A stretch of 64,000 nucleotides of DNA from Sulfurospirillum sp. 1612 (GTDB taxonomy: Bacteria; Campylobacterota; Campylobacteria; Campylobacterales; Sulfurospirillaceae), in contig NZ_CP140614.1 of NCBI RefSeq assembly GCF_036556685.1, positions 248,001 through 312,000 on the forward strand, read 5' to 3'. Shown piece by piece: positions 26,892-27,900 of this stretch. The position numbers and the translations under genes were made by a program. The notes under the pieces are model-generated. The model did not search any database. It was not told where the DNA came from and saw only the letters and a list, made by a program, of their open reading frames with translations. Position 1 is the stretch's first letter. Each line of letters starts with the position of its first letter.

Positions 26892-27560
26892 ATGCAATTT
26901 TTATATCATGAGCTGGCAAAAGATGCGACACTAACCCTAGATGCCAAAGCCTATTCCCATGTTCTGAAAGTCAGACGCGCCAAGATTGGAGATAGGCTTT
27001 TTGTGCGAAATATGATTGATGATATTTTGTATGAGTACACGATTACATCTATCAATAAAAAATATGCCAATTTGGATTTAATCGGAGAAAAATATCTCAA
27101 AATTGAAGCAGAAAAAGCCATTCATGTGGGTTGGTGTGTCGTAGACCCTAAGATGATTGAAAAAACACTTCCTTTTCTCAATGAACTGGGCGTCTCAACC
27201 ATCAGTTTTGTATATTGTGAATTTTCACAACAACAATTTAAGATTGACTTAGACCGCCTCAAGCGTATTTTAATCAACTCGTCACAACAATGTGGACGAA
27301 GCCATTTGATGCATCTCGAAGTTTTTGATACTTTAGCCGCATATGTCGCGCGTTATCCTGATAGTAAGATTATAGATTTTAGTGAAAATAGACTCAAAAA
27401 TGAAACAGATGGTACAACATTTTTGATTGGGTGTGAAGGAGGATTTTCGTCTGCTGAGCGGGATTTATTTCCCCCTGAAAAAAGGGTGGGCTTGCAAACG
27501 CCGATGATATTAAGAAGCGAAACGGCACTTTTAAGTCTCTGCTCCCATCTATTAACTTGA
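26892..27560 (+). CDS. rsmE: 16S rRNA (uracil-1498-N3)-methyltransferase
   Basis: SPOUT-class SAM methyltransferase that methylates U1498 of 16S rRNA. The N-terminal PUA-like part shows HVLKVRRAKIGD, and the C-terminal knot shows IGCEGGFSSAERD followed by LRSETALLSL, both typical. At 222 residues it is slightly short for the family. It sits in a cluster of ribosome-linked genes with rpmE, rsmI and rlmB. Confidence 0.92.
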   Translation: MQFLYHELAKDATLTLDAKAYSHVLKVRRAKIGDRLFVRNMIDDILYEYTITSINKKYANLDLIGEKYLKIEAEKAIHVGWCVVDPKMIEKTLPFLNELGVSTISFVYCEFSQQQFKIDLDRLKRILINSSQQCGRSHLMHLEVFDTLAAYVARYPDSKIIDFSENRLKNETDGTTFLIGCEGGFSSAERDLFPPEKRVGLQTPMILRSETALLSLCSHLLT

Positions 27561-27579
27561 AATCTTAAGAGTATTGTGT

Positions 27580-27585
27580 TATAAT
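27580..27585 (+). promoter_or_regulatory. -10 box upstream of rpmE
   Basis: TATAAT about 115 bases before rpmE. It predicts a transcript beginning near 27592, at a C-rich tract, so that the hairpin at 27609-27636 lies in the leader. Confidence 0.55.
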
Positions 27586-27608
27586 TTCGTTTCCCCTCCC
27601 CCCTATAT

Positions 27609-27636
27609 AGCGGTGGGCCTTAAAAAGCCTACTGCT
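27609..27636 (+). promoter_or_regulatory. Hairpin in the rpmE leader
   Basis: Ten bases at 27609-27618 pair with 27627-27636 (eight Watson-Crick and two G-U pairs) around an eight-base loop. It is preceded by a pyrimidine tract and followed by a tandem TACTAGG repeat at about 27655-27669. No T-run follows, so it is not an ordinary terminator. L31 genes in other phyla have autoregulatory leaders, and this may be one; that is inference. Confidence 0.5.
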
Positions 27637-27699
27637 AAGTTAATGTTAATTATTACTAGGATACTAGGGCACTTTATATAAATTTGAAGGAAGATAAGA

Positions 27700-27900
27700 A
27701 TGAAAAAAGATATTCACCCTGAATATGTCGCTTGTACGGTCAGTTGCGCTTGTGGAAATAAATTTGAAACAATGTCTAATAAACCAGAAATCAAGATCGA
27801 TATCTGTAATGAATGCCATCCTTTTTTCACGGGCAGTGAAAAAATAGTGGATGCCGCCGGTAGAGTTGAAAAATTTAAGAAAAAATATAATTTAAAATAG
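27700..27900 (+). CDS. rpmE: 50S ribosomal protein L31
   Basis: A 66-residue ribosomal protein of the bridge between subunits. It has the zinc-binding cysteine form: C12, C16, C18 near the N-terminus and the CNEC pair at about 36-39, followed by the family motif HPFFTG. AAGGAAG precedes the ATG. rsmI begins 15 bases after the stop. Confidence 0.96.

Follow-up and report, generated by a model that had tools for sequence, protein, structure and literature searches.

Leaders of the gene for ribosomal protein L31, rpmE, have been described as five motifs, in the Actinobacteria, Coriobacteria, Corynebacteriaceae, Firmicutes and Gammaproteobacteria (Eckert and Weinberg 2020, PMC7247131). As reported there, the L31 leaders of these lineages are single hairpins, structurally unrelated to each other; the names Campylobacter, Epsilonproteobacteria and Campylobacterota are absent from the main text of that paper. 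In E. coli, repression by the paralogue L31p is reported to require a hairpin at the 5′ end of the L31 mRNA (PMC9825181), and rpmE is given as one of the proteins reduced by the small RNA RoxS of Bacillus subtilis, a possible site being located in the rpmE reading frame (PMC10433868). An earlier note on the DNA considered here had stated that no L31 leader was known to have been described for this phylum, and a literature search, with most subscription journals outside its reach, found none, nor any description of the element reported below. A single paper in that search, PMC3847290, combined small RNA and transcription start site with Sulfurimonas, and rpmE does not occur in its main text. 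Rfam release 15 gave no L31 leader match for the stretch from the window or for a set of seven loci, the five listed matches being far below cut-offs.

The window, by which we mean the whole stretch of DNA that was analysed, comprises 64,000 nt from Sulfurospirillum sp. 1612. Within it, rpmE is preceded by the leader sequence TTTCCCCTCCCCCCTATATAGCGGTGGGCCTTAAAAAGCCTACTGCTA, and the following features could be placed.

26892 to 27560, plus strand: gene upstream of rpmE, for an RsmE-like RNA methyltransferase (PF04452, PF20260)
27557 to 27585, plus strand: promoter-like site TTGAAA-17-TATAAT, overlapping the 3′ end of the methyltransferase gene and agreeing with 11 of 12 consensus positions
27592 to 27607, plus strand: C-rich unpaired 5′ end of the predicted transcript, UCCCCUCCCCCCUAUA, the best-conserved part, with a complement beside murB
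27608 to 27637, plus strand: 11-pair hairpin of terminator-like form, from folding and covariation
27654 to 27668, plus strand: tandem TACTAGG (27654–27660 and 27662–27668), from the sequence
27687 to 27693, plus strand: rpmE ribosome-binding site AAGGAAG, by eye
27700 to 27900, plus strand: rpmE, ribosomal protein L31, 66 aa (PF01197, 4.4e-33)

The promoter-like site at 27557–27585 places the transcript start near 27592, in agreement with the start proposed in the earlier note, and lies upstream of the hairpin. Its −10 is preceded by TG, and 0.6 such sites are expected in shuffles of that stretch. The arms of the hairpin (27608–27618 with 27627–27637) form 11 pairs instead of the ten first counted, two of them G-U as had been noted, with a folding energy of −18.1 kcal/mol. 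Compared with shuffled sequences, the hairpin gave z values of −4.1 (27592–27642) and −4.8 (27606–27640), with 0 of 200 shuffles equal. The stability of the complete 108-nt leader is ordinary (z −1.12, equalled by 25 of 200 shuffles), and for this reason whole-leader stability was dropped as evidence. A terminator scan classed the hairpin as terminator-like, with only 2 T in the 7 bases 3′ of the modelled stem. The tandem TACTAGG is present as first described, and its second copy runs into GGG, predicted to be a possible cis partner of the C-run. Among seven congeners checked, TACTAGG occurs once in one and is absent in six, so the tandem is local; the GGG run is found in all seven, and 3′ of the hairpin in 14 of 14 rows from family f1 in the 54-row alignment described below. 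Conserved cis pairing between the C-run and the later GGG was rejected, as many f1 rows offer just three pairs by eye, and such pairing is suggested for the window's genus at most.

In many relatives, the regions upstream of rpmE share a common C-rich start followed by stems of quite different sequence. The search for compensatory stem changes that the earlier note had proposed was carried out, and covariation was found in two alignments. The first, A1, is a structure-blind MAFFT alignment of 14 chosen rows, in which 95.7% of stem cells are paired and 6 of 10 pairs show changes on both sides, a level reached by 0 of 500 shuffles. A covariance model built from A1 gave 60 matches in 62 named loci, from which 6 rows were dropped to leave the 54 rows of A3; unlike A1, A3 was fitted to the model and is biased towards structure. 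Two-sided changes are seen in 9 of the 10 modelled pairs of A3, with 95% of cells paired and 58 covarying cells vs 10.2 in shuffles, sliding controls being far lower. The loop differs freely in length and sequence and has no retained motif; conservation is highest in the unpaired 5′ end, UCCCCUCC(C)CCUAURURGC, which is near-invariant. A −10-like hexamer precedes the C-run in all 54 elements (TATAAT in 39, TATACT in 14, TAGAAT in 1), at a distance of six bases in 42 of the first 53, from which we infer that the C-rich segment would be the very 5′ end of the RNA. The alignments show a predicted hairpin that is kept as structure and a C-rich segment that is kept as sequence, with a nearly fixed distance to the −10 and rpmE almost always next. 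On these comparative grounds, the structured element that the earlier note had seen before rpmE, promoter-anchored and with its C-rich stretch and hairpin at 27592–27637, is a real RNA, undescribed in the searchable literature and in Rfam.

The rpmE gene lies downstream of 52 of the 54 elements (51 by script, plus L029; the exceptions are L225 and L106), and the elements followed by rpmE come from at least eight families. An RsmE-like gene was found upstream of 24 of the 54, and rpmE is adjacent also where this gene is not. A second covariance model, run with strict filters over 397 genomes of the class, gave 23 matches in 21 genomes: 20 upstream of rpmE, one in genome G030 without rpmE, and two weak extras. 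Within the window's genus, 9 of 10 genomes carry the element; the counts are 0 of 21 for genus g3, 16 of 41 for the family sample and 20 of 22 for family f7. A pattern scan of named genomes returned at least 118 stretches; among the 80 titled matches listed, 26 name Campylobacterota, Campylobacterales, Campylobacteraceae, Epsilonproteobacteria, Sulfurospirillum or Sulfurimonas. An L31 frame was found by pattern within 700 nt in 31 of the at least 118 stretches, and by eye also in L124, L145, L199 and L207. The match at G064:C1:123477, opposite a strong ribosome-binding site by eye, was judged to be chance, and a class-wide scan with a 13-base C-rich word was uninformative, a reversed control pattern having matched widely too. 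A near-copy of the C-rich word, CCCCTCCCCCTATGTAGCGA, was seen in L219 and L247 (G062:C1:726502), flanked by frames that by eye resemble small-phage replication and secretin genes.

The constancy of rpmE downstream of the element, across at least eight families, favours a leader of the kind that the earlier note had put forward, in which L31 would repress its own mRNA by binding to the hairpin or to the C-rich end, adding a motif to the five published ones. The covarying stem and the promoter-like site upstream fit such a leader, as do the single, mutually unrelated hairpins of other lineages and the E. coli hairpin cited above. However, conservation lies in the unpaired 5′ end and not in the loop, a G-rich complement of the leader occurs elsewhere, and nothing in this analysis supports L31 binding. 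The arrangement in family f7 also argues against it. In rows from families f1, f3, f4, f10 and f11, the element lies 72–150 nt before rpmE and no second promoter was recognised. In f7, rpmE follows 88–436 nt on in 19 of 21 loci, and at most loci, by eye, the two are separated by a T-run that follows the hairpin and by a later, separate promoter for rpmE. In G030, the element is found at the same site behind an RsmE-like gene, and rpmE is about 34 kb off on the same contig. The f7 genomes concerned carry, in addition, another conserved hairpin right at the start of rpmE. Weighing these points, self-repression by L31 through this element is partly supported but rather unlikely.

The second hairpin was observed immediately upstream of the rpmE ribosome-binding site, in f7 loci such as L081, L110, L124, L136, L178, L186, L193, L208, L309, L314 and L320, and also in L028 of G030. 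It has the form YYUGUUAU-(2–4 nt)-AUGCARR with a bulged U; its five inner pairs never vary and its three outer pairs change compensatorily (17 rows, 9 cells), with 0 of 500 shuffles for cells and 37 of 500 for pairs. Since it stays with rpmE in G030, this hairpin would be the better candidate for the true L31 leader there. In family f18, a second promoter-like site was seen by eye upstream of rpmE, its −10 being closely followed by a recurrent CGCT(C/T)C start (L073, L076, L079, L082, L085, L201, L214 and L221).

With its promoter, C-rich tail, hairpin and T-run, the f7 element is mostly a closed unit, which is what would be expected of a stand-alone C-rich small RNA in the style of CJnc190, RepG or RoxS that targets G-rich mRNA sites, rpmE merely using its promoter. 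Also in keeping with this is the splitting off of rpmE, through rearrangement in G030 and, in L106 and L174, through the insertion of an unrelated reading frame; loss of rpmE from the latter two was rejected when the gene was found about 1.8 kb on, behind the insert, and only G030 counts as separated. Only part of the elements, however, have a T-run in the 7 nt that follow the modelled stem, with at least five T in 25 of 54 and at least four in 34 of 54, the window having two, and rpmE is adjacent in nearly all genomes even without an RsmE-like gene upstream. An RNA independent of rpmE is the less probable of these two alternatives. A 5′ stabiliser or constitutive attenuator of rpmE, whose hairpin would protect the end or trim read-through and whose C-run would be a start-site feature, agrees with the position at the extreme 5′ end and with the terminator form in many relatives (and the terminator-like listing of the window hairpin), but leaves about 18 nt near-invariant across families, and the complement at murB, unexplained, and is very improbable.

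The reading we prefer, with a rough probability of 45%, is that the C-rich rpmE leader may work by pairing with a putative trans-encoded G-rich small RNA from another locus. The element would form the 5′-terminal domain of the rpmE transcript, with a C-rich single-stranded segment at the start and then the terminator-form hairpin. The proposed pairing segment is 27592–27607, running on into the stem to about 27612; contact would be made through two G-rich sites, GCUAUAUAGGG and GGGGA, and a duplex that includes GC(A/G)G would extend to the base of the stem. With nt 27591–27612 kept unpaired in the leader fold, the lower five pairs were lost by construction and the upper six remained. Where a T-run follows the hairpin, some transcripts would end there to give a free RNA of about 50 nt, and pairing into the hairpin foot would either favour read-through into rpmE or lead to one RNA removing the other. 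The window's species is without a T-run, so the effect there would be on leader folding or on the stability of the rpmE mRNA. Pairing might either raise or lower rpmE. Against pairing of this kind, the link with rpmE is tighter than an independent small RNA would need.

Candidate loci for the G-rich partner were found by complementarity to the leader. In the window's genome (2.38 Mb, both strands), CCCTATATAGC occurs exactly twice, in the rpmE leader and just behind murB, where the following feature was placed.

G000:C1:2327667 to 2327677, minus strand: putative small RNA gene in the murB 3′ flank (L301), G-rich complement of the rpmE leader, from the sequence

The G-rich RNA of this genome would be made from the minus strand beside murB, around G000:C1:2,327,670. 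Ten genomes hold 20 exact copies of CCCTATATAGC, 9 at rpmE, 6 at murB and 5 elsewhere, mostly within reading frames. A murB-side copy or close variant recurs in 9 of 13 f1 genomes that carry the element and in none of the three f1 genomes that lack it (G010, G011 and G012); on rescanning the whole murB loci of the f1 misses, the complement was absent. It also lies behind murB in family f18, in G085, where murB was identified by PF02873, and in G403, G298 and G064, where murB was recognised by eye; the named records L146, L205 and L183 show the same arrangement on inspection by eye. The convergent gene at the murB site is tsaD in the window's genome (PF00814) and a peroxiredoxin-like frame, by eye, in f18. 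In f7, 4 of the 12 genomes searched have similar complements between genes at other places, most extra pattern matches falling in reading frames. The location of the partner differs between families. Overall, searches that were incomplete (patterns with up to 2 mismatches, or the murB flank read by eye) found a partner in 17 of 41 element-bearing genomes: 9 of 13 in f1, 4 of 11 in f18, 4 of 12 in f7 and 0 of 5 in others.

Read on the minus strand, the f1 and f7 sites have the order TATAAT, G-rich word and, usually, a hairpin. TATAAT lies within 60 nt upstream at 12 of 13 of these sites (1.64 expected; 0 of 1000 shuffles). In f18, no TATAAT is present within 60 nt at three of four sites, and the fourth is truncated at 13 nt. 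The −35 boxes of this phylum are generally weak. A scan requiring one listed 0 of the 4 proposed partner promoters that were scanned, and ATTATAAT is also its own complement. A clear T-tail follows the partner site in 3 of the 13 f1 and f7 sites (G017, G418 and G426), with a partial one in two; a terminator-like hairpin with T-tail was found in G017 and G418, and by fold in G426, and a terminator scan of partner sites gave none in L364 and none in the window's genome. At most sites a second G-rich word, GGGGA or similar, is located in or near the partner hairpin. The possibility that the murB motif is a second, plus-strand copy was set aside, since the order of TATAAT and hairpin fits the minus strand and the convergent gene differs. 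Both readings of the murB motif, plus-strand copy and minus-strand partner, predict the same parallel changes, by which they are not fully separable.

Predicted duplexes of the partner with the first 25–27 nt of the leader range from −25.6 to −49.1 kcal/mol, and for six f1 genomes an equally good pairing was reached by 1 to 6 of 200 shuffled partners; as the sites were found by seed complementarity, neither complementarity nor duplex energy is independent evidence. The independent evidence for the partner is its recurring location, the TATAAT and the hairpin. Pairing within a genome was no better than with relatives' partners in f1 (0.73) and f7 (0.79), and weakly better in f18 (0.08). Matching changes between the two loci could be seen by eye, with G-C for A-U in f18 and in G418, C-G for U-A in G298 and G-C for U-A in G064; permutation within families gave no significance for inter-locus compensation. 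A co-change test over 13 genomes returned 0.0008 but is confounded by family, f18 alone giving 0.086.

Taken further, pairing between the C-rich leader and a G-rich RNA could belong to an old two-RNA system of the class, a tentative proposal that we hold less firmly than the pairing itself. The L31 leader would double as a C-rich small RNA, checked or antiterminated by a dedicated G-rich small RNA encoded at a different locus, ribosomal-protein synthesis would be tuned by RNA-RNA pairing in place of the protein, and some lineages would have uncoupled the C-rich RNA from rpmE. The element adds a conserved structured RNA in Campylobacterota lineages outside Campylobacter and Helicobacter, for which our literature search returned almost no RNA work. 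Should the G-rich partner be real, a ribosomal-protein leader would be under the control of a trans-encoded RNA, and the passage from leader to free small RNA could be followed by comparison within a single class.

Among described systems, the element resembles the L31 leaders of PMC7247131, as presented there, in being a single covarying hairpin upstream of rpmE with a lineage-restricted distribution, and differs from them in its conserved unpaired C-rich 5′ end, its terminator form and its separability from rpmE. The CJnc190/CJnc180 pair of Campylobacter jejuni, in the same phylum, likewise combines a small RNA acting on a G-rich sequence with a complementary antagonist RNA; by the account in PMC8687705, CJnc180 is encoded opposite CJnc190, whereas the complement here is at another locus, and the likeness is drawn from description. 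RepG of Helicobacter pylori, as described in PMC8295292, is similar, again by description, in regulating via a G-run in an mRNA leader, and has a different gene context from the rpmE element. With RoxS of Bacillus subtilis the element shares single-stranded C-rich regions, as given in PMC10433868, the difference being that the C-rich region here is carried on the rpmE transcript itself.
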